Part shown: in pieces, positions 13,691 to 27,396 of the stretch | Position numbering within the stretch: the first letter of the stretch is position 1 | Layout: every line of letters begins with the position of its first letter | Assembly: GCA_025454775.1 (NCBI GenBank) | Contig: JALONU010000004.1 | Span: forward strand, 1 to 35,734 | Length of the DNA stretch: 35,734 nt | Direction of reading: 5' to 3' | Source: Bacteroidales bacterium | Lineage (GTDB): Bacteria; Bacteroidota; Bacteroidia; Bacteroidales; VadinHA17 | The notes under the pieces: model-generated | The model's database searches: none | The model's input: only the letters and a program-made list of their open reading frames with translations | Told to the model about the DNA's origin: nothing | Made by a program: the position numbers and the translations under genes

Positions 13691-14851
13691 TCAGTTGCTG
13701 AATAATTGAGCGAGCTTCAGTTGCAGGGGTTTGCCATGGAGGTTCGAGGCCACAATGTTGCCCTGCGGATCGAAGAGGTAATTTGCCGGGATTGATTTCA
13801 CATTGAAGAGATAGGCATTTCTCTGGTTGGCAGGATCGGGCTCTCTTGTGCTGATCCAGGGAAGCTCGTCGAATTTCACCGCAGCCTTCCAGGCTTCTTC
13901 GCTGCTGTCGAGGCTGATCTGGTAAATTTCAAATCCCTTCCTGTTATAGAGTTTGTAGAACTCCTTAAGCTGGAGGTTCTCTGCAATGCATTCCCTCGAT
14001 TCGGACGACCAGAAGGCGAGAAGGACGTATTTACCCCTAAGCGAGGAGAGGGCAACCTTCCGGCCGTTTATGTCATTCAGCACCGGGTCGAGCTTCGTTT
14101 CGGGCAATTGTTCAACGAGCTGGTTCAGCCTGGCCGCATTCATCCGTCTCATACCTTCCTCGAGAGTGCCGAGGAGAAGTTTTGTATGCCTCGATGCCGG
14201 GTAATGCCGGAGAAGGGAATCAGAAATTATCTTCATATACTGAAGGTCGCGGGTCTCATAGAGAACATATACCTCGTCGTTGATCTTCTGGTATACAGCC
14301 TTCACGGAAGCAAGTGACTTTGTATTGTTGATTATGAACTCAATATTGAATCGCCTCTGTAACTTAACAAGGCTGACGATTTCATCGTAGATCGCATTGA
14401 GTGTGCTGTCGGCAGCCTTCAGCTCCAATGCTTTCTGATAAATGGTGTTCAGTGAGTCGATCATGAACCTTGTCCTGAGAAGCTTGTCATCGAGAATCTT
14501 GATCTGGGAAGAGCCTTCGGATCCCTCCACGGCGTAATCCGTGAAAAGGTTCTTGTCACGGAAACTGATCTGTATCTTCTCCCCCGGTTGTGCGAGGAGG
14601 GTTATAAAATTCGTTGGTGAAACCCCCACTTTGTAAAAATCGGGCTCTTCCGATTTAATCCTGAACCTGAACGATCCATCGCGTCTGATCCTTGAAGAGT
14701 CGATTGCCTCCGTGGTGCTAATGTCCATCCTGCTTACTGTAATGAACTTCCCTGTGCCTGCAGGAAGAGTGCCTTTAACGCTGAAGGAGTTTTTATCCCT
14801 GCACCCGGCAAGAACCAGCAGGGGAATGAAGAATAACAGGATTTTTTTCAT
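13691..14851 (-). CDS. TlpA-like lipoprotein with degenerate active site (DUF4369-thioredoxin)
   Basis: The in-frame ATG at 14860 would give MLP before MKKILL; I prefer the start at 14851, which gives a compact lipoprotein signal (LVLAGC). Counting from 14860, residues 24-130 resemble the DUF4369 beta domain, followed by a helical linker and a thioredoxin-fold domain from about 255. At the place where its neighbour has WCAPC, this protein has SSESREC (285-291): the first, attacking Cys is Ser288, while the second Cys (291) remains. The cis-proline loop (SIPANYLFDPQG) is kept. It therefore probably cannot act as an ordinary disulfide reductase and may bind or assist its neighbour instead. It is a tandem paralogue of the next gene upstream and lies 8 bases before lpxH. 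Confidence 0.85.
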   Translation of the reverse strand: MKKILLFFIPLLVLAGCRDKNSFSVKGTLPAGTGKFITVSRMDISTTEAIDSSRIRRDGSFRFRIKSEEPDFYKVGVSPTNFITLLAQPGEKIQISFRDKNLFTDYAVEGSEGSSQIKILDDKLLRTRFMIDSLNTIYQKALELKAADSTLNAIYDEIVSLVKLQRRFNIEFIINNTKSLASVKAVYQKINDEVYVLYETRDLQYMKIISDSLLRHYPASRHTKLLLGTLEEGMRRMNAARLNQLVEQLPETKLDPVLNDINGRKVALSSLRGKYVLLAFWSSESRECIAENLQLKEFYKLYNRKGFEIYQISLDSSEEAWKAAVKFDELPWISTREPDPANQRNAYLFNVKSIPANYLFDPQGNIVASNLHGKPLQLKLAQLFSN

Positions 14852-14888
14852 CGGCAGCAATAGTATATTGTATCAGTGAATGCAGTCA

Positions 14889-16058
14889 TCAGTTTGCGAA
14901 GATCTCTGCCAGCTTTTTCAGAAGCTGTTCATCCCTGAGGTCTGAGGCTATGATATGTCCTTCCCTGTCGAGGAGGTAGCTTGTCGGAATATGTTCCAGG
15001 TTGTAGAGGCTTACAACCTCCGACTGCCAGTATTTGATGTCGCTCACATGGATCCATCTCCCCAGGCCGTCCTCTTCAATACCTTTGACCCAGGCTTCCC
15101 TGGTCTTGTCGAGAGATACCTGGAAGATCTGAAATCCTTTTGAATGATAAAGGTTGTAGGCTCTTACAAGGTTGGGATTTTCTTTCCTGCAGGGAGCGCA
15201 CCAGGAAGCCCAGAAATCAAGGAGGACTATGTTCCCTCTTGTAGATGAGAGCCTTATTGTGTCGCCTTCGGGATTGGGAAGCGTTATTTCAGGTGCTGCG
15301 ACAAGCTCTCCGGCTATTGGCGACCTTAGCCTCTGCGCCTCGACATCTGACTTCAGCCCTTCAACCTGGCTGTGAAGCGATTTAACTGGTTCATAATCGG
15401 GGTACAGCTTTGAGAGCGACGAATCGACTTTAATGAAATATTCCAGGTCTCTCTCGGGATGGAGTATGTACTCTCCGGGGGCTACCTGCTGGTATAGTGC
15501 AACGAGGCTTACAAGGGAGTTGAGGTTCCTGTCTATATAATCCCTGGTATAGGCATTAAGCTCGTTCAGGTGGACCTGTGCAAGACTGTCGAGCCTGTCC
15601 ATCACCACAGCAAGCTGTTCCGTTCCAAGGTTCTGAACATAAACGTCGTAGAGACTTTTCAGCTTGTCGATCGTTGTAAGGAGCCTCCTGTTGTACTCAT
15701 TCATCAGCTCTGTTCCCTTCGATCCTGTGATCGCGGAAGGGTAATTCAGTGAATCGCGGTATGCCTTTATGAAAATATTCTGCCCGGGTTCAAGGAGCAG
15801 GGTGAGGAAGTTGGTCTCGTCCGTTTTGATGAGATAGAAGGAGGGGAAACCGATCTTCCTCCTGAATGAAAAGGAACCATCCTCGGCAACAGCAGAAGAA
15901 TCAACGGTGATCAATTCATTGGACCTCAGTTCGTCGAGGTAGAGAAATTCACCTCTGCCAGGGGATAAAAGTTTGCCGTTAATCTCAATATTGTTATTTT
16001 TACAGCCTGCAATAATCGACGCAGCCAGTAAAAAGAATGATACCTTTTTAATCATCAA
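14889..16058 (-). CDS. TlpA family thiol-disulfide oxidoreductase lipoprotein (DUF4369-thioredoxin)
   Basis: This 389-residue lipoprotein (lipobox IAGC, Cys19) has an N-terminal DUF4369-like domain (about 20-125), a helical linker rich in Leu and charged residues (115-250) and a C-terminal thioredoxin fold. The active site is FWASWCAPCRKENP with Cys287 and Cys290, and the cis-proline loop is HIPTSYLLDREG. It should reduce or exchange disulfides of periplasmic proteins while anchored to a membrane. It is the first gene of the operon with the degenerate paralogue (37 bases downstream of this stop to the preferred start) and lpxH. The two paralogues have the same overall plan and nearly equal length, which points to a tandem duplication. 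A good promoter lies upstream (16097-16128). Confidence 0.92.
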   Translation of the reverse strand: MMIKKVSFFLLAASIIAGCKNNNIEINGKLLSPGRGEFLYLDELRSNELITVDSSAVAEDGSFSFRRKIGFPSFYLIKTDETNFLTLLLEPGQNIFIKAYRDSLNYPSAITGSKGTELMNEYNRRLLTTIDKLKSLYDVYVQNLGTEQLAVVMDRLDSLAQVHLNELNAYTRDYIDRNLNSLVSLVALYQQVAPGEYILHPERDLEYFIKVDSSLSKLYPDYEPVKSLHSQVEGLKSDVEAQRLRSPIAGELVAAPEITLPNPEGDTIRLSSTRGNIVLLDFWASWCAPCRKENPNLVRAYNLYHSKGFQIFQVSLDKTREAWVKGIEEDGLGRWIHVSDIKYWQSEVVSLYNLEHIPTSYLLDREGHIIASDLRDEQLLKKLAEIFAN

Positions 16059-16233: not shown

Positions 16234-18183
16234 ATGAGTTACATTAAGTTTGAAAAGGGGCAGATTGTGAACCTGGAGTTCTCCCTGGCCAGGGAAATGA
16301 TAAGGACGAACAGGGCAGGGTCCTATGCCTCAACAACTATTGTGGAATGCAACACGCGCAAGTACCATGGTCTGCTTGTCTGCCCCGTCGATGATCTGGG
16401 GGGAGGAAGATACGTGCTGCTCTCCTCGCTTGATGTCACTGTACTGAACAACAATCAAAGCTTCAACATAGGGATCAGGAAATACAAGGGCGATTATTTC
16501 AGCCCCAAGGGTCATAAGTATATCGAGGACTTTTCAACCGAGATCATTCCTTCGAGGATTTACAGGGTGGGCAACGTTCTCCTGAAGATGGAGAGGCTTT
16601 TGGTTCACTACGAGGAACAGCTTCTGGTGAGATATACAATTCTCGATGCCAATGAGAAGATGAAACTCCAGATACGGCCCTTCCTGGCTTTCAGGAGCAT
16701 TCACGAGCTTACCCATGCAAACCTCACGGCCAATACCAAGATAGAGCATATAAAGAACGGGATCAGGTCAAAAATGTACAACGGCTTCCCCTGGCTTAAC
16801 ATGCAGTTCTCCGAAAAGGCGGAATTCGTACATGTTCCCGACTGGTACCTGGGTGTTGAGTATACCGAAGAACAGAAAAGGGGCTATGATTACTCGGAAG
16901 ACCTGTTCACCCCGGGCTTCTTCGAGCTTGAAGCAAAAAAGGGAGATGTCATAGTGTTTTCTGCCTCCACAAGGGAGGAGAAGCCTTCCGGACTTAAACC
17001 CAAATTCACAAAGACCATCTCAGGCAAGATCCCCAGGGATAATTTCACCGACTGCCTCAAAAATGCAGCGCAGCAATTCGTCGAAAAAAGAGGGGACGAC
17101 ACCCTTATCATAGCCGGTTATCCATGGTTCGGTTCATGGGGAAGGGATACATTCATATCACTGCCTGGAATCGCACTTGCACGCCATAAACTGAAACTTT
17201 ACCGCGCCGTGCTTGATACGCAGGTGATAAGGATGGAGAACGGCCTCTTCCCGAATATGGGAACAAAAGGGCATTATGCCTTCAATTCGGTTGATGCACC
17301 GCTCTGGTTCTTCTGGACCCTTCAGCAATATGTCCTTAACGGGGGCAGCGACTGCTGTGAACTTTATGAAGAAGCTGCCAAGTCGATACTCAGGGCTTAC
17401 AGGAACGGAACAGCCTTCAGCATACACATGAGGGAAAACGGACTTGTATATGCCGATGCACCCGGAAAAGCACTCACCTGGATGGATGCTGTGGTAAACG
17501 GCGTGCCGGTGACACAGCGCCGTGGCTATGCCGTAGAGATCAACGCGTTGTGGTACAATGCAATAATGTTCGCCCTCGAGATGGCCAAATCAATCAGGGA
17601 CAGACAGTTCATCAAGGAATTTGAGGATCTCCCGGAACTCATCCGGAAGTCATTCCTTGAACTCTTCTGGGACGAAAAAGCCGGATACCTGGCCGACTAT
17701 GTCAACGATGAGGAGGGAAGGAATTTCTTCAAAAGGCCCAATATGGTCATTGCGGTGTCACTTCCATATTCGATGCTGGATAAGGAGCAGATGAAAAAAG
17801 TGCTCGACGTTGCGGACAAGGAGCTTCTGACACCCAGGGGTCTCCGGACACTTTCCCCGGGCAACAAGTTATATAACGGGATCTACCAGGGTAACCAGGA
17901 GGCGAGGGACAATGCTTACCACCAGGGTACCGTGTGGCCATGGCTCCTTGGACCGTTCTGCGAAGGATGGCTCAGGGTATATGGTAAAAGCGGCGTTCAG
18001 AAAGTCAGGAAACTGATCTTCGGACTTGAAGAATGCATGAGCGAACATGGTGTTACAACACTTTCGGAGATACACGATGGCGACCCGCCACATGCTCCAC
18101 GCGGAGCAATATCACAGGCCTGGAGCGTCGGAGAGGTTCTGAGGATCCTAAATCTGCTTGAGCAGGATTATTCAAACATGTAA
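16234..18183 (+). CDS. Glycogen debranching enzyme (amylo-alpha-1,6-glucosidase type)
   Basis: This 649-residue cytoplasmic enzyme removes branch residues from glycogen after outer chains have been shortened. The N-terminal half (1-270) is a beta-rich domain beginning with FSLAREMIRTNRAGSYAST and TRKYHGLLV, typical of the archaeal/bacterial GDE family. The C-terminal half is the (alpha/alpha)6 amylo-glucosidase (GDE_C) domain with GYPWFGSWGRDTFISLPG (295-312), LTWMDAVVNG, YAVEINALWYNA, HQGTVWPWLLGPF and the final PRGAISQAWSVGEVLR. Length is normal. It is first in the glycogen operon, 12 bases ahead of the GT4 gene. The same order, debranching enzyme then GT4 then GH57, is familiar to me from Bacteroides genomes. 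Confidence 0.93.
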   Translation: MSYIKFEKGQIVNLEFSLAREMIRTNRAGSYASTTIVECNTRKYHGLLVCPVDDLGGGRYVLLSSLDVTVLNNNQSFNIGIRKYKGDYFSPKGHKYIEDFSTEIIPSRIYRVGNVLLKMERLLVHYEEQLLVRYTILDANEKMKLQIRPFLAFRSIHELTHANLTANTKIEHIKNGIRSKMYNGFPWLNMQFSEKAEFVHVPDWYLGVEYTEEQKRGYDYSEDLFTPGFFELEAKKGDVIVFSASTREEKPSGLKPKFTKTISGKIPRDNFTDCLKNAAQQFVEKRGDDTLIIAGYPWFGSWGRDTFISLPGIALARHKLKLYRAVLDTQVIRMENGLFPNMGTKGHYAFNSVDAPLWFFWTLQQYVLNGGSDCCELYEEAAKSILRAYRNGTAFSIHMRENGLVYADAPGKALTWMDAVVNGVPVTQRRGYAVEINALWYNAIMFALEMAKSIRDRQFIKEFEDLPELIRKSFLELFWDEKAGYLADYVNDEEGRNFFKRPNMVIAVSLPYSMLDKEQMKKVLDVADKELLTPRGLRTLSPGNKLYNGIYQGNQEARDNAYHQGTVWPWLLGPFCEGWLRVYGKSGVQKVRKLIFGLEECMSEHGVTTLSEIHDGDPPHAPRGAISQAWSVGEVLRILNLLEQDYSNM

Positions 18184-18195
18184 AAGAGTCAGGAT

Positions 18196-19488
18196 ATGCG
18201 TGTGTTAATGTTTGGCTGGGAATTTCCCCCTCATATATCGGGAGGGCTGGGAACAGCTAGCTATGGACTGACCAAAGGCATGGCAACTCTTGACAACCTG
18301 GAGGTAATCTTCGTTGTCCCAAGGGCATACGGCGACGAGGACCAGAGCGTTGTCCGCCTCATAGGGGCCAACAAGGTGCCGGTAGCCTTCAAAAAGGTAT
18401 TCTACAAGGGAAGCAGGCGTCCGATAGAGAAAATCGAGATATCCTCAAAGATTGTTCCCTACACCGACCCTGAGGAATTCTGGAAGATGACCAGGACCGA
18501 AGAGTATGCCCACAGGCTTATTGTACAGACGAACAGGAAGGGGATGATAGATTTTTCTGGCAGATACGACGGTAACCTGCTCGATGAGATATATAAATAC
18601 TCGGTTGTTGCTTCTGTGATAGCCGAAGAAAATGAGTTCGACATAATTCATGCCCACGACTGGCTTGCCTACCCTGCTGGAATTGCAGCAATGGAGGTCT
18701 CGGGTAAACCGCTGGTGATACATGTTCATGCAACCGACTTCGACAGGAGCGGAGGCAATGTGAACCCCGATGTCTACCGCATAGAAAAAAGCGGGATGGA
18801 TGCAGCCTCCAAGATCATAACGGTGAGCAACCTCACGCGCGACATTGTGATAAACAGGTACGGGATACACCCCGACAAGGTGGAGACGGTCTACAACGCG
18901 GTTGAACCAATTCATCTCACCGAAGATGTCGCGGTTAACAAGGGTTTCGATGAAAAAGTTGTAACCTTTCTGGGAAGGATCACCCTTCAGAAAGGACCTG
19001 AATACTTCATCGAAGCTGCCTATAAGGTACTCAAGGCGATGAACAACGTAAGGTTCGTTATGGCCGGCTCCGGCGATATGATGGAAAGAATGATCAGGCG
19101 GGCAGCATCGCTCAAGATAACCGACCGGTTTCACTTCACCGGGTTCCTGAGGGGCAAGGACGTCTTCACAATGCTCTCTATGAGCGACGTATATATAATG
19201 CCGTCGGTATCAGAACCATTCGGAATTTCACCTCTCGAAGCAATGCAGTCGAATGTTCCTGTTATAATCAGCAAGCAGTCGGGTGTTGCAGAGATACTTA
19301 CACATGCTGTCAAAACCGATTTCTGGGACATTGATGCAATGGCGGATGCAATTTACGGGATCCTGAATTATCCTGCCCTTGCAGGCATGTTCATAAAGAA
19401 CGGAAAGGAAGAGGTCATCAGGCTTAAATGGGATAATTCGGCAAGGCATGTGAGGGACATATATGAAAGAGTCATTTGGCATAAATAA
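18196..19488 (+). CDS. Family GT4 glycosyltransferase of the glycogen operon
   Basis: This 430-residue GT-B retaining glycosyltransferase has the glycogen-synthase-like opening FGWEFPPHISGGLGTASYGL, the central DIIHAHDWLAYPAG and VIHVHATDFDRSGG segments, the nucleotide-sugar domain FLGRITLQKGPEYFIEA, and the E-x7-E motif SEPFGISPLEAMQ (Glu340 and Glu348). It is a soluble cytoplasmic protein. Position between the debranching enzyme (12 bases) and GH57 (8 bases) suggests a role in building or priming alpha-glucan chains, but the donor (ADP-glucose, UDP-glucose or another) cannot be read from the sequence. Because the operon also encodes a GT3-type synthase, this one may start chains or make a different product. 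Confidence 0.85.
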   Translation: MRVLMFGWEFPPHISGGLGTASYGLTKGMATLDNLEVIFVVPRAYGDEDQSVVRLIGANKVPVAFKKVFYKGSRRPIEKIEISSKIVPYTDPEEFWKMTRTEEYAHRLIVQTNRKGMIDFSGRYDGNLLDEIYKYSVVASVIAEENEFDIIHAHDWLAYPAGIAAMEVSGKPLVIHVHATDFDRSGGNVNPDVYRIEKSGMDAASKIITVSNLTRDIVINRYGIHPDKVETVYNAVEPIHLTEDVAVNKGFDEKVVTFLGRITLQKGPEYFIEAAYKVLKAMNNVRFVMAGSGDMMERMIRRAASLKITDRFHFTGFLRGKDVFTMLSMSDVYIMPSVSEPFGISPLEAMQSNVPVIISKQSGVAEILTHAVKTDFWDIDAMADAIYGILNYPALAGMFIKNGKEEVIRLKWDNSARHVRDIYERVIWHK

Positions 19489-19496
19489 ATTATAAC

Positions 19497-21101
19497 ATGA
19501 GTGCAGCAGGCAAAAAGGCTATTTGCCTTTATTTCCAGGTTCATCAGCCCTTCAGGCTCAAGAGATACAGGTTCTTCGACCTGGGGCATGACCATTATTA
19601 CTATGACGATTTTTCTAACGAATCAATACTCAGGAAGGTTGCTGACAAGTGCTACCTGCCGGCGAATAAGATCATCCTCGACCTTATAAACAAGCATAAG
19701 GGCAAGTTCAGGGTTACATTCTCCCTGTCAGGGATAGTAATAAACCAGTTCCGGCTGTATGCACCCGAAGTGCTCGAATCATTCAGGCAGCTTGCAGAGA
19801 CCGGGATGGTTGAATTCCTGGCCGAGACGGATTCACACTCGCTTGCTTCCCTGAAAAGCAGGGAGCACTTTGAATCCCAGATTCAGCTGCACCGTGATAT
19901 GATGAAGAAATATCTCGGGTCAGAACCTACCTCCTTCAGGAACACTGAGCTCATTTATTCCGACCAGATAGGATCGTGGATAGCAGATATGGGATACAAG
20001 TCGATGCTGACCGAAGGTGCCAAGCACGTCCTCGGATGGAAAAGCCCTAACTACCTGTATTGCAACGCCATAAACCCGAGGCTCAAGGTGCTTCTCAGGA
20101 ATTTCGTGCTCAGCGACGATATCGCATTCAGGTTCTCAAACAAGCAGTGGAGTGCATGGCCTCTTACTGCCGACAAGTATGCCTCCTGGCTGGGCAAGCT
20201 TGCACCCAAGAGCGAACTTGTCAATATCTTCCTCGATTATGAAACTTTCGGGGAACACAACTGGAAGGAAACGGGGATCTTCGACTTCCTTCAGCATATG
20301 CCTGCAGCCGTGCTGAAAAAAACTCCATTCAGGTTCATGACCCCTTCCGAAGTTGCCGACACACTGCAGCCTGTATCGGCCATCAGCGTACCCTCACCCA
20401 TATCGTGGGCCGACGAGGAAAGGGATATAACGGCATGGGTTGGTAACGAAATGCAGGTAGCTGCCCTCGACAAGCTGTATGAGCTTTCCGACCGGGTGAA
20501 AAGATGCAACGATGAGCTTATGAACAAGGACTGGGAATACCTCCAGTCGAGCGATCATTTCTACTACATGGCGACAAAGTTCTTTTCCGACGGAGCCGTC
20601 CATGCCTATTTCAATCCTTATGATACTCCCTATGAGGCATTCATGAACTATATGAATGTCCTGAGCGATTTTGAAATAAGACTGAAAAGATGCCTTCCTG
20701 CCACATCGGAACAGGAGCAGATATCAAAACTTGAAACTATCATAGCAGAAAAGGACAGGATCATCGATAAACAGTCTGAGGAGATTGCCCGGCTTACGGG
20801 AAAGGGACCTAAAAAAGCTGCCAGAAGCCGCTCTGCTGCCATAAAGGAAGCGCCGGGCTCACTTAAGGAGCTGGCAGCTAAACTGGCCAAGGCCAGTCTC
20901 AAGAAGAGCGTTGGGAAAAAGATAACCGTAAAGGAAAAAGCAAAGGAGAAAGTGAAGGCAAAAGTCTCGGAAAAAGCAAAGGAAAAACCGGCAGGCAGGA
21001 AAACTACTGTAAAAACATCCACCAGGACCGCTTCCGTAAAGAAAGCAGCTGTAAAGAAGTCAAAAACTGCCCCCAAAACAAAGAAAGCCGTAAAGAAGTA
21101 A
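19497..21101 (+). CDS. GH57 alpha-glucan enzyme with histone-like C-terminal tail
   Basis: Residues 1-400 form a GH57 domain (alpha-amylase or 4-alpha-glucanotransferase type). Seen: motif 1 YFQVHQPFR (12-20), FSLSGIVINQF (75-85), nucleophile motif FRNTELIY (Glu151) and acid motif FLDYETFGEHNW (Asp247). Residues 404-435 look like a short coiled coil (ISKLETIIAEKDRIIDKQ). From about 437 to 534 the chain becomes an extremely Lys/Ala/Thr-rich tail, about one third Lys, with EKAKEKVKAKVSEKAKEK and VKKAAVKKSK, similar in composition to bacterial histone H1-like proteins. GH57 enzymes known to me end near the domain, so the tail is an extra part. It may bind a polyanion or a phosphorylated glycogen surface. 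Gap to the fusion gene is 41 bases. Confidence 0.88.
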   Translation: MSAAGKKAICLYFQVHQPFRLKRYRFFDLGHDHYYYDDFSNESILRKVADKCYLPANKIILDLINKHKGKFRVTFSLSGIVINQFRLYAPEVLESFRQLAETGMVEFLAETDSHSLASLKSREHFESQIQLHRDMMKKYLGSEPTSFRNTELIYSDQIGSWIADMGYKSMLTEGAKHVLGWKSPNYLYCNAINPRLKVLLRNFVLSDDIAFRFSNKQWSAWPLTADKYASWLGKLAPKSELVNIFLDYETFGEHNWKETGIFDFLQHMPAAVLKKTPFRFMTPSEVADTLQPVSAISVPSPISWADEERDITAWVGNEMQVAALDKLYELSDRVKRCNDELMNKDWEYLQSSDHFYYMATKFFSDGAVHAYFNPYDTPYEAFMNYMNVLSDFEIRLKRCLPATSEQEQISKLETIIAEKDRIIDKQSEEIARLTGKGPKKAARSRSAAIKEAPGSLKELAAKLAKASLKKSVGKKITVKEKAKEKVKAKVSEKAKEKPAGRKTTVKTSTRTASVKKAAVKKSKTAPKTKKAVKK

Positions 21102-21142
21102 CGGCACAGAATTAAAATTCCATATTAATATATCCAGAAAAA

Positions 21143-24100
21143 ATGAAGGTTGATTTTTTATTTGAAACCAGCTGGGAAGTCTGCAATAAAGTTGGCGGAA
21201 TACACACGGTCGTTTCAACAAAGGCCCTCAACATCGTGGAGGAACTTGGTGATAATTATATTCTTATCGGCCCCGATGTGTGGAGGGAAGAATCAAAGAA
21301 CCCCGAATTCATTCCCGATGATGGCCTCTTTGCCGAATGGAGAGCAAGGGCATCCTCAGAAGGCATGAGGGTGAAGACAGGCCGGTGGAACATTGCGGGT
21401 AAACCCATTGTGATGCTGATAGACTTCACTCCGTACTTCGGGCAGCAGAATGAGATATTTGCAAAATTCTGGGAGACATATAAGCTCGACAGCATATCCG
21501 GTCAGTGGGATTATGTTGAACCTGCCCTTTTCGGATACGCTGCCGGCAAGCTGATAGAGAGCTTTACATCATTCTATCACGAGCATAATTATATAGTTGC
21601 ACAGTTTCATGAATGGATGACCGGGACAGGGATCCTGTACCTGAAAAAGCATGTTCCGTGGGTAGCCTCTTCCTTTACAACCCATGCCACTGTCCTCGGC
21701 AGATGCATAGCAGGCAACAACAGGCCCCTGTACGGGAAAATGAAGGACTATGTCCCGGCGCAGGTTGCACGTGAATTCAACGTGATAGCCAAGCAGTCTC
21801 TTGAAAGAATATCTGCTGCAGAAGCAGATGTATTCACGACTGTAAGCGGTATAACCTCGAAGGAATGCAGTCATTTCCTGGGCAAGGATGTGGATATTGT
21901 AACACCGAACGGCTTTGAGGATTCTTTTGTACCTCCGCCGGAACTTTTCGGCGAAAAGCGCAAGGCAGCAAGGGAAAAGCTTAAGAAAGTAGCTGAAGCA
22001 GTGCTGGGTTACGGTCTGAAAGACGACTGCCTTTTCATTGCAAACAGCGGGAGATATGAATTCAGGAACAAGGGAGTAGACATTTTCATCGATTCTCTCG
22101 GGGAACTGAACAAAAAGGAAAAGCCAGGGAAGGATTGCATTGCATTCATCATGATGCCGGCTTATCATAAGGGGCCGAGGCAGGATGTTGTGGATATACT
22201 TTACAACAATGGCCCTGCCAACGGGGGAGACCGCTACCTTACACACAGCCTTCATTATCCCTCGTCCGACCCGGTGCTTCAGAGAATTAATGCCAACAAC
22301 CTGCACAACGACGAGAAATCCCAAGTAAAAGTCATATTTGCACCAAGCTACCTTAACGGCAACGACGGCATATTCAATATGCCATACTACGATCTTCTTA
22401 TCGGTTTTGACATTTCAGTATTCCCATCCTACTACGAACCCTGGGGCTACACACCCCTCGAAAGCCTTATGTTCTCAATACCCACTGTTACAACATCCCT
22501 GTCGGGGTTCGGACTCTGGGTGAGGGACTATTTCAAGGATCCGGGGAATGGCGTGGCGGTTATTGAAAGAACTGATGACAACGAAGACAAGGTCGTGACT
22601 GCTATCAGGCACTTCATGGCTGCTTTCTCAAACCTTGGTGAATATGAAGTCGCTGAGGCACGTGCCAAGGCTCATGAAATTTCACGGATAGCAATGTGGG
22701 ACAGCCTGGTGCAGCATTACTTCACCGGGTATGAAACAGCACTGGGAAAGAGCAGCGAAAGGAGGGAAGAACCACGCGAATTCATCGGATTTGTGGAAGC
22801 CCCGGGAGTACCGGTACGAAAACCTCACCAGCTTCCCGTATGGAAAGACATATATGTACAGAGCCATGTTCCCGACAAGCTTGCTTCTCTGAAAGAACTG
22901 GCAAACAACCTGTGGTGGTCGTGGAACTCAGAGGCTGAAAATCTTTTCAAGAGAATGGATCCCTCACTCTGGGAGGAAGTGAAGCATAATCCCAAGGTGC
23001 TCATCGAAAAAATTGATTACAAGAGACTTCTCGTACTTGAAGATGATGAGGACTTTGTAGCCGATCTCGCGACGGTGACGAAAAACTTCCATGAATACAT
23101 CAACCGTCCGGACGACCCGGAACAGCCTGCTGTTGCATATTTCAGCATGGAGTTCGGGATTCATCCCTGTCTCAAGATCTATTCCGGGGGTCTGGGGATC
23201 CTTGCCGGCGATTACCTTAAGGAGGCCAGCGACTCAAACAAGAAACTGATAGGAATAGGACTTCTTTACAGGTACGGCTATTTCAGGCAGAAGCTGGGTC
23301 CAAAGGGTGAACAGCTGGCGATCTATGAAGCCGAAGAATTTTCGCGGCTTCCCATCATGCCTGTTAAGGATGCCAAAGGAAACCATCTTTCAGTAAGCCT
23401 TGTCTGGCCGGGCCGCACGGTAAAAATAAGGGTATGGGAAGCAAAAATCGGTAAGGTAAGCCTTGTATTGCTGGATTCCGACTTTGATGACAATACTCCG
23501 GAAGACCGTACGGTAACCCACCATCTTTACGGAGGTGATCATGAGAACAGGCTCAGGCAGGAGCTTATCCTGGGAATAGGAGGAATAAGAGCTCTCGAAG
23601 CCATGGGATTAAAACCTGATGTTTTTCACAGCAACGAGGGACATTCCGCCTTCATAAGCCTTGAGAGGATGCGGACAATGATAGAGGAACACCATCTTAC
23701 ATTCCATCAGGCAATAGAAGCAGTACGTGCATCAACCCTTTTCACCACACACACTCCGGTTCCTGCCGGGCATGACGCCTTTGATGAAGATCTGATCAGA
23801 AAATACATATCACATTATCACAGCAGGCTTAACATAACCTGGGAAGAGCTTATGGCTCTCGGCCGCTGCGATACCGATATGGAAAGAAAATTCAACATGA
23901 GCTACCTGGCAACAAGAATGTCGCAGGAGCTGAACGGAGTAAGCAAACTCCACGGCGAGGTGAGCCAGGGAATGTTCAACAAGCTGTGGCCCGGGTACCT
24001 CAAGGAGGAATTGTACATCGACTATGTCACAAATGGTGTTCATCATCCTACATGGACAGCCCCTGAATGGAAGGAGGTCTACAGGGAGATCACGGGGAGT

Positions 24101-25366
24101 GAACATTTCGACCAGACCAACAGGGGGCTCTGGGATAAACTATATAATGTCGATGACAGAAGGATCTACGAGATAAAGAAGAAACTCAAGAAAAACCTGT
24201 TCGAGAACATAAGGAAGAGACTGCAGACCGACATGATGGAAAGGCATGTCAGCCCGCGAACGCTGATGAATATCAGCAGCCATCTTGACGAGAAGGCTCT
24301 TACCATAGGCTTTGCCAGGCGTTTTGCCACCTATAAGCGCGCCACTCTCATATTTCGCGACCTCGATCGTCTTGCACGGATCGTGAATAACCCCCAGAGA
24401 CCCGTTCAGTTCATCTTTGCGGGGAAGGCACACCCCCATGACGGAGGCGGACAGGATCTTATCAGGAGAGTCTTTGAAATCTCCCAGCTGCCGCAGTTCG
24501 CAGGCAAGATCATCTTCCTCGAGAACTACGACATTGAACTGGCCAAATACATGGTAAGGGGAGTGGACATCTGGCTCAATACTCCTACCAGGCCGATGGA
24601 AGCTTCGGGTACAAGCGGTGAAAAGGCTGTGATGAACGGCACGATCCATTTCAGCGTTCTCGACGGCTGGTGGGTTGAAGGTTACAGGGCATACGCCGGC
24701 TGGGCTCTTCCGAAAAAGAGAACATTCTCCAACCAGGAACTTCAGGATGACGTAGATGCAGAGACTATCTATAATATGCTCGAGTATGAGATCGTACCTG
24801 CCTACTATTCCTTTAACGACCAGGGCGTACCGGTTGAATGGGTGAGCCTTATCAAGAATACCATGATAAAGATTGCACCTGAATTTACCATGAAGAGGCA
24901 GCTCGACGACTACTACGAGAAGTATTATATGAAGCTGTTCCGGAGGAGCAAGTATCTTATAGCCAACAACTTTGAAAAGGCCAGGGAATTAGCAGGATGG
25001 AAGAAAACCATGGTTGATGAGTGGGATAACATCGAAGTTCTGAATTACAGTTTCGAGAGACCTGGAGAGAACATATACCATTCAGGTCATGATTACAAGG
25101 CTGAGATAGCTTTGAACGTTCATAAGATACCCAAAGAGAATGTAGGTGTGGAGTTCATAATCACCCATATGAGCAAGGATGGGGAACATGAATTTGTGGC
25201 CAGCAACGAATTTGTACTGGTCAACTGCCGGAGCGGCAAATGTCTTTACAGGGCTAACCTTGTTCCTGAAAAGGCAGGCACTTTCTTTTACGGTATCAGG
25301 ATTTACCCCAAGCACAAGGATCTGCCGCACAAGCAGGATTTCTACCTGTTGCGCTGGATCGACTAA
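21143..25366 (+). CDS. Glycogen synthase (GT3) - alpha-glucan phosphorylase (GT35) fusion
   Basis: This 1407-residue chain joins two complete enzymes. Residues 1-545 are a eukaryote-type GT3 glycogen synthase, starting DFLFETSWEVCNKVGGIHT, with the catalytic E-x7-E pair Glu432/Glu440 in YYEPWGYTPLE. A linker (about 546-570) leads to a DUF3417 segment (ELANNLWWSWN, about 584-594) and a bacterial-type alpha-glucan phosphorylase: HSNEGHSAF (829-837), FTTHTPVPAGHDAF, and the pyridoxal-phosphate lysine Lys1161 in EASGTSGEKAVMNG. The C-terminus (about 1290-1407) is beta-rich. GT3 enzymes usually use UDP-glucose, which fits the lack of glgC here. The fusion puts elongation and phosphorolysis of the same polymer in one protein. 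In Bacteroides these are separate genes as far as I recall. The stop overlaps glgB by four bases. Confidence 0.93.
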   Translation: MKVDFLFETSWEVCNKVGGIHTVVSTKALNIVEELGDNYILIGPDVWREESKNPEFIPDDGLFAEWRARASSEGMRVKTGRWNIAGKPIVMLIDFTPYFGQQNEIFAKFWETYKLDSISGQWDYVEPALFGYAAGKLIESFTSFYHEHNYIVAQFHEWMTGTGILYLKKHVPWVASSFTTHATVLGRCIAGNNRPLYGKMKDYVPAQVAREFNVIAKQSLERISAAEADVFTTVSGITSKECSHFLGKDVDIVTPNGFEDSFVPPPELFGEKRKAAREKLKKVAEAVLGYGLKDDCLFIANSGRYEFRNKGVDIFIDSLGELNKKEKPGKDCIAFIMMPAYHKGPRQDVVDILYNNGPANGGDRYLTHSLHYPSSDPVLQRINANNLHNDEKSQVKVIFAPSYLNGNDGIFNMPYYDLLIGFDISVFPSYYEPWGYTPLESLMFSIPTVTTSLSGFGLWVRDYFKDPGNGVAVIERTDDNEDKVVTAIRHFMAAFSNLGEYEVAEARAKAHEISRIAMWDSLVQHYFTGYETALGKSSERREEPREFIGFVEAPGVPVRKPHQLPVWKDIYVQSHVPDKLASLKELANNLWWSWNSEAENLFKRMDPSLWEEVKHNPKVLIEKIDYKRLLVLEDDEDFVADLATVTKNFHEYINRPDDPEQPAVAYFSMEFGIHPCLKIYSGGLGILAGDYLKEASDSNKKLIGIGLLYRYGYFRQKLGPKGEQLAIYEAEEFSRLPIMPVKDAKGNHLSVSLVWPGRTVKIRVWEAKIGKVSLVLLDSDFDDNTPEDRTVTHHLYGGDHENRLRQELILGIGGIRALEAMGLKPDVFHSNEGHSAFISLERMRTMIEEHHLTFHQAIEAVRASTLFTTHTPVPAGHDAFDEDLIRKYISHYHSRLNITWEELMALGRCDTDMERKFNMSYLATRMSQELNGVSKLHGEVSQGMFNKLWPGYLKEELYIDYVTNGVHHPTWTAPEWKEVYREITGSEHFDQTNRGLWDKLYNVDDRRIYEIKKKLKKNLFENIRKRLQTDMMERHVSPRTLMNISSHLDEKALTIGFARRFATYKRATLIFRDLDRLARIVNNPQRPVQFIFAGKAHPHDGGGQDLIRRVFEISQLPQFAGKIIFLENYDIELAKYMVRGVDIWLNTPTRPMEASGTSGEKAVMNGTIHFSVLDGWWVEGYRAYAGWALPKKRTFSNQELQDDVDAETIYNMLEYEIVPAYYSFNDQGVPVEWVSLIKNTMIKIAPEFTMKRQLDDYYEKYYMKLFRRSKYLIANNFEKARELAGWKKTMVDEWDNIEVLNYSFERPGENIYHSGHDYKAEIALNVHKIPKENVGVEFIITHMSKDGEHEFVASNEFVLVNCRSGKCLYRANLVPEKAGTFFYGIRIYPKHKDLPHKQDFYLLRWID

Positions 25367-27396
25367 ATATCGGTTGCCCTCCTTACAGGTTCGCCCTTAA
25401 GGACGACAGCAGTGCGGGATGGCAAATACAGATAAAGCCGGAAGGGCACATTCAGTGTAGCCCTATCGGCTTTTTTTACGGAAGTGTATATGGTCTTTCT
25501 GTCGAAACGGTTAAAGCCTCCGAAGGCAGGGTCGTCGGAATCGATCAGCACCCTGTACTTCCCCTTTACCGGGATCCCGTAGTCGGTAAAAGACTTTACG
25601 GGATGGAAGTTGAATACGAACAGAAGCTGTCCCCTGGTGAACGCGATCACCTTGTCGTGGCTGTTCTCTACGAGCCTTCCAATGTACATTTCGTCGAGAA
25701 CCCTGAACTCAGCCTGAAGTTTCACCATTTCCCTGTCGAAGCCGGCAAGGAAATGATATTTCAGATCCTTGTTCTCAAGCAGCTGCCACTGTCTTCTTGC
25801 ATACTTGTAGCTCCAGTTATTGCCTTCCCTGGGGAAGTCTATCCATTCCGGATGCCCGAACTCGTTTCCCATGAAGTTCAGGTAGCCGCCGCCTGCAGTG
25901 CCGAACGTTAAAAGCCTTATCATTTTGTGCAATGCTATGCCCCTGTCCATGGAAAAACTGTGGTGCCAGATGGTCATGCCGGTGTACATCTCTGCATCGA
26001 GCATCCTGAATATCAGCGTCTTGTCACCTACCAGGGCCTGGTCGTGCGATTCGCAGTACGAGATGATCTTTTCTTCCGGACGATGCTGTGTAAGCTCATG
26101 CATCAGGTGGCCCATATCCCAGTTCTCATCCAGGGTTTCCTTTACCAGCTTGATCCAGAAATCAGGTACTCCCATTGACAGCCTGTAATCAAAACCGTAA
26201 CCGCCTTTTGCCGTGGGTGCAGCCAGTCCGGGCATACCGCTCATCTCCTCGGCGATAGTCAAAGCTGCCGGGTTGAATTCATGGATGAGCTTGTTTGCCA
26301 GGAAGAGGTAAACAAGCGCATCTTCATCCTGCCCTCCGTCAAAGTACTCACTGTATGTTGTAAAATTTTTCCCCAGGCCGTGATCATAATAGATCATGCT
26401 GGTGATCCCGTCGAACCTGAAACCGTCGAATTTGTATTCTTCGAGCCAGTAGCGGCAGTTTGAGAGCAGGAAATGAAGCACATTATCCCTGCCGTAGTCG
26501 AAGCACAGTGAATCCCAGGCTATATGGTTTCTCCTGTCGCTGGTATGAAAGTAGAGCCCCGGGGATCCGTCGAAAAGCCCGAGGCCTTCGTTTATGTTTT
26601 TCACCGAATGGGAATGCACAAGGTCCATTATAACCCTCAGGCCGTTAGCGTGTGCTGTATCAATAAGTTCCCTGAGATCCTCGGGGGTGCCGAAGCGCGA
26701 AGAAGCTGCGAAGAAATTGGCGACGTGATACCCGAATGATCCGTAAAAAGGATGTTCCTGGACAGCCATCAGCTGAATGGTATTGTACCCGGCCCTGACG
26801 ATCAATGGAATTATGTTCTCAGTGAATTCACGGAAGGTTCCTGTTTTTTCAAGCTGCGTGGCCATACCTACGTGGGCTTCATAAATAACCGGCGTGGTGG
26901 CAGTGGATACGAAATTCCCGATCTTCCACCGGTATTCTTCAGGAGGATTCCACACCTGTGCGGAAAAGATCTTGGTTTTTTCATCCTGAACAACCCTGTT
27001 GGCATAGGAGGGTATCCGTTCACCTTTTCCTCCGGGCCAGTGGATGAGAAGCTTATAAAGGTCTCCGTGTTTCAGAGCCTCTGAAGGAAGCGATATCTCC
27101 CAGTCGCCGTATTCGCTGATACGGTTGAGCCTGTATTCCTGCTTCTCCTTCCAGCCGGTAAATGTGCCTGTGATGAAGATTTCATCAGCATTTGGAGCCC
27201 ATTCCCTGAAGATCCATCTGTCTTTTTCCCTGTGGAGGCCGTAATAGAAATAGCCCATCGCAAATTCAGTCAGTTTTCCCCTACCGATCAGCTGCCTTTC
27301 CCTCGAAAGGCACTTCGCAATGCGCCTGTCAATTACCGGACTGAACGGATCGAGCCATGGATCGGCTTCATAAAACTTTCCCGCAGCTTTCTTCAT
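25363..27396 (-). CDS. glgB: 1,4-alpha-glucan branching enzyme (GH13)
   Basis: This 677-residue enzyme makes alpha-1,6 branches in glycogen. It starts with the FYEADPWLDPF region of the eukaryote-like GBE type (GH13 subfamily 8 rather than the GlgB of E. coli), followed by a CBM48 domain (FREWAPNADEIFITGTFTGW, 63-82) and the GH13 barrel. The catalytic triad is seen: nucleophile Asp329 (DGFRFDGIT), acid/base Glu383 (IAEEMSGMP) and Asp452 (ESHDQALVGDK). The C-terminal beta domain ends RTAVVLKGEPVRRATDI. It faces the glycogen operon and its stop overlaps that of the synthase-phosphorylase gene (CTAA at 25363-25366), so it must be transcribed separately. Confidence 0.95.
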   Translation of the reverse strand: MKKAAGKFYEADPWLDPFSPVIDRRIAKCLSRERQLIGRGKLTEFAMGYFYYGLHREKDRWIFREWAPNADEIFITGTFTGWKEKQEYRLNRISEYGDWEISLPSEALKHGDLYKLLIHWPGGKGERIPSYANRVVQDEKTKIFSAQVWNPPEEYRWKIGNFVSTATTPVIYEAHVGMATQLEKTGTFREFTENIIPLIVRAGYNTIQLMAVQEHPFYGSFGYHVANFFAASSRFGTPEDLRELIDTAHANGLRVIMDLVHSHSVKNINEGLGLFDGSPGLYFHTSDRRNHIAWDSLCFDYGRDNVLHFLLSNCRYWLEEYKFDGFRFDGITSMIYYDHGLGKNFTTYSEYFDGGQDEDALVYLFLANKLIHEFNPAALTIAEEMSGMPGLAAPTAKGGYGFDYRLSMGVPDFWIKLVKETLDENWDMGHLMHELTQHRPEEKIISYCESHDQALVGDKTLIFRMLDAEMYTGMTIWHHSFSMDRGIALHKMIRLLTFGTAGGGYLNFMGNEFGHPEWIDFPREGNNWSYKYARRQWQLLENKDLKYHFLAGFDREMVKLQAEFRVLDEMYIGRLVENSHDKVIAFTRGQLLFVFNFHPVKSFTDYGIPVKGKYRVLIDSDDPAFGGFNRFDRKTIYTSVKKADRATLNVPFRLYLYLPSRTAVVLKGEPVRRATDI

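Follow-up and report, generated by a model that had tools for sequence, protein, structure and literature searches.

The window analysed here, a stretch of 35,734 nucleotides from a Bacteroidales bacterium (contig JALONU010000004.1 of assembly GCA_025454775.1), carries on its forward strand a gene whose predicted product joins a glycogen synthase of glycosyltransferase family 3 (GT3) to an alpha-glucan phosphorylase of glycosyltransferase family 35 (GT35). The two are a textbook case of enzymes that oppose each other, usually separate and reciprocally controlled. The gene and its parts are as follows.

21143..25366, + strand: GT3-GT35 fusion gene, 1407 codons plus stop, a single open frame, fused also in close relatives
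21143..22783, + strand: GT3 glycogen synthase half, residues 1-547 (PF05693; predicted fold; His181, Arg187, Arg304, Lys310, Glu432, Glu440)
22784..22855, + strand: flexible linker of ~24 residues (about 548-571), of low predicted local distance difference test score (pLDDT) and poorly conserved sequence
22838..25363, + strand: complete alpha-glucan phosphorylase half, residues about 566-1407 (TIGR02094; match to PDB code 9l6i; DUF3417 at 576-677; pyridoxal phosphate (PLP) lysine Lys1161; C-terminal region)

A first-pass annotation, made from the sequence alone, had proposed that enzymes of opposite direction share this 1407-codon frame, and the open frame and profile scores confirm a real fusion at 21143-25366. 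An in-frame stop lies upstream at 21113, and 22700-22960 is stop-free in this frame; the only in-frame start codons over residues 536-610 are GTG at 551 and ATG at 605. Pfam profiles match Glycogen_syn (PF05693; 328.7 bits against a cut-off of 27) over residues 8-341 and a second stretch, DUF3417 at 576-677 (115.5 bits) and Phosphorylase at 827-1179 (113.2 bits), and the NCBIfam model TIGR02094 matches residues 664-1264 with 847.4 bits (cut-off 191.7). Glu432, Glu440 and Lys1161, to which the annotation had assigned catalytic roles, stand at those positions in their respective halves. No second match of this kind turned up in the genome that carries the gene. Fusion is also seen in the closest named relative (L002, 84% identity), in the two genomes of the same genus and in the sole same-family genome in a search of the order; because of these fused relatives and of purifying selection on both halves (see below), the fusion is neither chance nor misassembly.

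In an AlphaFold2 model of residues 1-700, the GT3 half (1-547) is predicted with high confidence and DUF3417 is folded, while residues 548-571 are nearly all of low confidence (pLDDT below 50 at 548-560, 563-565 and 567-571); residues 665-689, close to the cut end of the model, are also low. The stretch spanning the linker measures 57-63 residues in 117 of 121 fused proteins. A Foldseek search of the PDB with this model gave worm, human and yeast glycogen synthases as best matches (best E value 3.4e-44), and the identity to the 39 best structural matches is 26-29%. Residues R187, R304, K310, E432 and E440 align with identical residues in human GYS1, the two glutamates lying eight apart; we take these Arg, Lys and Glu positions to be catalytic. 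The half thus combines a profile score above the cut-off with a GT-B fold and the expected active-site residues, and it shares family, fold and the two-glutamate motif with the eukaryotic GT3 synthases (human GYS1, yeast Gsy2). It differs from them in carrying a phosphorylase, in lacking most of the sensing arginines and in its shortened tetramerization region. The GYS1 cluster that senses glucose 6-phosphate and phosphorylation, with numbering and role taken from PMC9287172, has four of its six arginines replaced in the fusion protein (R579, R580, R582 and R591 align with E, Y, V and E); R586 is retained and R588 is matched by K. The counterpart of GYS1 372-443, a region of 72 residues, is 24 residues long; the same paper places GYS1 429-430, part of this region, within a tetramerization helix. 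The alignment with GYS1 does not show the combination of arginine cluster and tetramerization helices that marks a eukaryotic-type regulated synthase, and control of that type is unlikely for this half; since these features are largely missing, any control would be of another kind.

The C-terminal part is a complete enzyme. Residues 10-851 of PDB entry 9l6i, a solved stand-alone chain of 852 amino acids, align nearly end to end with residues 564-1406 of the fusion, which indicates that DUF3417 belongs to the phosphorylase. The first-pass annotation had placed DUF3417 as a segment between the two enzymes; on this alignment a spacer is ruled out, and DUF3417 is the N-terminal domain of this type of phosphorylase. 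All of the GT35 active-site positions scored are present (H870, R1059, R1060, Y1064, K1065, R1066, E1153 and K1161), with roles at the PLP and phosphate sites that we presume by analogy with the rabbit enzyme. A profile score above the cut-off, the PLP lysine and the phosphate-site residues together assign this half to the TIGR02094 subfamily of GT35. It resembles the DUF3417/TIGR02094 phosphorylases (PDB code 9l6i; Thermococcus type), of which it covers nearly the whole of 9l6i, and a table in PMC6355812 gives the same domain order, DUF3417 followed by phosphorylase, for stand-alone proteins; the fusion protein differs from these in having a glycogen synthase at its N-terminus.

Occurrence was assessed in 295 genomes of the window's order, each at least 90% complete, a set free of selection by score. 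A GT3 match is present in 266 of them: in a frame of at least 1,100 amino acids in 198, in one of 747-787 amino acids in three, as a separate gene of 530-656 amino acids in 59 and as fragments of 100-460 amino acids, which are left unresolved, in six. Three of the separate genes come from family f122 (31-34% identity) and belong to a more distant GT3 type; four come from family f136 (35-40%). The fusion is the majority state among the GT3-bearing genomes of the order (198/266). Reading at the level of the locus gives the fusion in 206 genomes, 190 of them from the order. By family (n = 101 in the order at this level), 80 have fused genes only, 19 separate genes only and two are labelled as having both; family f73 truly has both forms, and f86 is so labelled only through the cut contig of genome G659. 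The other 16 fused genomes belong to other orders of the class (families f175, f186, f199, f212, f213 and f214). Among the matches listed for other classes of the phylum (392 genomes), phosphorylases occur without GT3; outside the phylum, sampling was confined to a search for relatives, from which the best 80 of 586 were taken. In 79 of these the fusion spans the whole or nearly the whole query, and the remaining one (L018) is cut by a contig end; being chosen by score, this set favours fusions. The first-pass annotation had wondered how common the fusion is and whether it might be lineage specific, and had called for proteins with both domains to be mapped: the order search shows it to be frequent within the order, and the fused genomes of other orders show it to be present beyond it. 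Separate genes in related genomes, which the annotation had held would tell against a fusion, do exist (the 59 genomes above), but the near relatives of the window are all fused.

Two candidates were discarded. The phosphorylase of genome G337, first read as a 1449-residue open frame, lies in a frame separate from GT3 on locus reading, which we consider the more trustworthy. An apparent archaeal fusion (L033, labelled Candidatus Heimdallarchaeota, on a 6.7 kb contig) pairs with a Bacteroidota metagenome-assembled genome (L030) with support of 100 and a path length of 0.039, and for that reason its contig is probably misbinned. Some variants were also observed. A metagenomic contig labelled Bacteroides fragilis (L043) is fused, groups away from the split clade and is probably mislabelled. 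A fused frame of 1173 amino acids at L261:1057-4575 on the minus strand has a phosphorylase match without the DUF3417 start and the C-terminal end; a frame of 1149 amino acids occurs in another genome of that family, G802. The fused lineages include a culturable one, Dysgonomonas (L044). The fused frame at L249:3-5147 on the plus strand has an open extension of ~300 residues before GT3, in which no Pfam match was found.

Fourteen active-site positions, six in GT3 and eight in GT35, were scored to compare the integrity of the halves. Among the 178 fused frames scored at all 14 positions, 170 are intact, six have a changed GT3 and two end early. The eight GT35 positions are intact in 176 of these frames, and no substitution was seen in any protein read: the two early-ending frames (G605, at a contig end, and G433, inside a contig) are not substitutions. 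All six GT3 positions are present in 198 of the 206 fused genomes and are changed or deleted in eight, from five families (G538, G472, G520, G419, G418, G519, G505 and G400). In G418 Glu432 has become Lys, with other changes, whereas G520 and G419 have lost the second Rossmann domain of GT3. The phosphorylase positions could all be read and are intact in six of the eight, G505 and G400 being covered at only one. A search of 47 genomes of one family showed this last form in genus g208, in which eight species (L252, L253, L474, G926, G928, G931, G933 and G934, three of the eight read as sequence) have a fused protein of 1155-1228 amino acids without the second synthase domain: the GT3 match stops at 243-290 and resumes at 517-549, with a full phosphorylase match in the same frame. 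The 27 full-length members of that family have all sites intact, and an assembly fault is an unlikely source of the shortened form. For the three half-synthase rows, two changes are needed on an open fork, a single origin also being compatible. In a predicted structure of the L252 remnant, block pLDDT is at least 75 in 22 of the first 26 blocks. Separate GT3 genes are intact in 47 of 48 cases, the exception (G659) being the cut contig; from 8/206 against 0/47 we do not claim that fusion itself causes decay. Ratios of nonsynonymous to synonymous substitution (dN/dS) were taken from seven distinct close pairs of relatives, pairs with the window's own gene having saturated dS. They are 0.022-0.21 for GT3 and 0.015-0.12 for GT35, with GT3 higher in all seven and GT3 identity below GT35 identity in five; these ranges indicate that both halves are constrained, GT3 a little less.

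At split loci, GT3 is followed immediately by the phosphorylase gene on the same strand in 9/9 and 16/20 cases (two sets); beside the GT3 genes of L281, L283, L285 and L286, no phosphorylase was found within the fetched stretch. The adjacent genes of families f2, f3 and others in the order thus encode the same two proteins, in the same order and on the same strand, but as two polypeptides. The split rows group in a single clade in quick GT35, GT3 and joint trees, with support of 100 for each half; the outgroup chosen for the GT3 tree was the distant types f122 and f13. Outside this clade fall the f122 type and L086, which is a phosphorylase of another order and has no adjoining GT3. A GT35 tree with outgroups from other classes rejects a single clade of all fused proteins by the approximately unbiased test (p-AU 0.0015). 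Removal of the f214 and f199 rows raises this to p = 0.333, so the rejection comes only from these deep fused lineages falling outside. When the joint tree is rooted on f214, a single clade of the other 28 fused rows is not rejected and scores slightly better (p 0.825). The trees are compatible with either one fusion and one fission or at least two fusions.

The gene neighbourhood also points to glucan metabolism. The following genes flank the fusion.

16234..18183, + strand: glycogen debranching enzyme of glycoside hydrolase family 133 (GH133) type (GDE_N + GDE_C), upstream of the fusion
18196..19488, + strand: GT4-like glycosyltransferase, upstream of the fusion, below the cut-off of the GlgA_Coryne model
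19497..21101, + strand: GH57 enzyme, upstream of the fusion
25363..27396, - strand: GlgB-like GH13 enzyme, tail to tail with the fusion with a 4-base overlap, below curated GlgB cut-offs

The first three form with the fusion a same-strand array with short gaps. Among the best 80 relatives, in loci with enough flank, same-strand upstream genes recur for GH57 (56/67 loci), GT4 (51/56) and GH133 (48/49). Downstream, a GlgB-like gene is present on either strand in 28/65 loci; in at least 12 more it is situated ~4.4-4.7 kb upstream. Farther upstream in the window, 13691-16058 on the minus strand holds two tandem frames of 389 amino acids, each with DUF4369 and thioredoxin-like domains and each with TTG as its listed start.

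No GlgA above the cut-off was found in 25 genomes, including the window's own (94.8% complete), and no GlgC in 11, again including its own; controls exceeded the cut-off in 7/14 for each. In 24 of the 25 genomes (L287-L296 among them) a frame of 265-306 amino acids matches only the first, N-terminal part of GlgA, and in the window's own genome the partial match is in two pieces on contigs C209 and C210. These frames fit a statement in PMC11046441 that Bacteroidetes keep a GlgA-GT5 fragment; the same review reports GT3 sequences in Bacteroidetes, placed within DPANN sequences, and suggests gene transfer. The GlgC-negative genomes agree with PMC10395257, which holds that Bacteroidetes are without GlgC and may rely on an enzyme closer to that of humans. 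Given the lack of GlgA and GlgC matches over the cut-offs and the fit with both reviews, the GT3 half is the leading candidate for glycogen synthase. Its donor, as expected for the family, is probably UDP-glucose. A search with the PF01704 profile gave no match anywhere, controls included, and is uninformative. The overall chemistry of glycogen storage and use would be that of the Escherichia coli GlgA(GT5)/GlgP/GlgC pathway; that pathway uses a GT5 synthase, separate genes and ADP-glucose, whereas here the synthase is of family GT3 and fused, with no GlgA or GlgC over the cut-off.

Judged from sequence and predicted structure, the protein is likely to be a two-headed enzyme of a storage-glucan locus that both extends and phosphorolyses the same glucan. 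The GT3 half would add glucose to chain ends from a nucleotide-sugar donor, probably UDP-glucose, and the PLP-dependent GT35 half would release chain-end glucose with phosphate as glucose 1-phosphate; the linker of ~24 residues would let both act on one glucan particle. Direction would be set by the levels of inorganic phosphate, glucose 1-phosphate and nucleotide sugar rather than by eukaryotic-type control through glucose 6-phosphate and phosphorylation. Several observations weigh against this reading. Linkage is not essential, since 59 of the 266 genomes have GT3 as a separate gene; a single chain with opposing activities would be at risk of futile cycling; and the source of UDP-glucose is not pinned down, GalU matches being all below the cut-off in 11 genomes (controls over it in 5/14). 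To these are added the altered synthase sites of eight fused genomes and the half-synthases of g208.

The last two points would be explained if the phosphorylase had the constant job and the GT3 half acted in part, and in certain lineages solely, as a structural or glucan-docking domain keeping the phosphorylase on its polymer. Changes confined to the GT3 sites across five families, eight species that keep half a synthase joined to a full phosphorylase, a remnant predicted to be still folded and the higher dN/dS and often lower identity of GT3 all fit, but we consider this unlikely: the synthase site is intact in 198/206, the window protein is itself intact in a genome with no GlgA over the cut-off, the L252 model depends on aligned relatives that are intact, and a decaying domain may persist simply because in-frame deletion is hard. 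It is likewise doubtful that the synthase has repeatedly been turned into a non-catalytic targeting or regulatory domain, with the phosphorylase function fixed, the synthase half wearing out in separate lineages and, in one genus, several species keeping a half-synthase joined to a phosphorylase whose active-site residues are complete. There is only a slim chance that both halves are mainly synthetic, the phosphorylase running backwards from glucose 1-phosphate. These phosphorylases are described as reversible in PMC11046441. A GlgB-like gene is present in 6/8 genomes with changed GT3, so some glucan synthesis may continue there without GT3; with 12/14 among the others, its presence does not separate the groups. 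However, the debranching gene upstream of nearly all of the loci fits breakdown, and the usual excess of cellular phosphate favours phosphorolysis. The 59 genomes with separate and mostly adjacent genes might suggest that an assembly error or a frameshift has joined two neighbouring genes here, but such an artefact is refuted by the presence of the fusion at locus level in 206 genomes and by the near full-length matches in 79 of the best 80 loci; the chance of it is negligible. A two-headed enzyme remains the preferred reading.

The fusion is real, joins two known families and is widespread in the order, whose members are gut and environmental bacteria, and no GT3-GT35 fusion is described in the open-access papers searched (subscription papers, CAZy, InterPro and UniProt lay outside the search). 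Bacteroidota commonly have long proteins with a phosphorylase annotation, and a fused synthase may go unnoticed where the name reflects the phosphorylase half. The main puzzle is that no phosphorylase site is substituted in any protein read, yet the synthase half sometimes decays. With fused, split and worn-synthase versions, the order holds a natural series for the effect of linkage on storage-glucan turnover, and the same series bears on how a futile cycle may be avoided without eukaryotic-type control.

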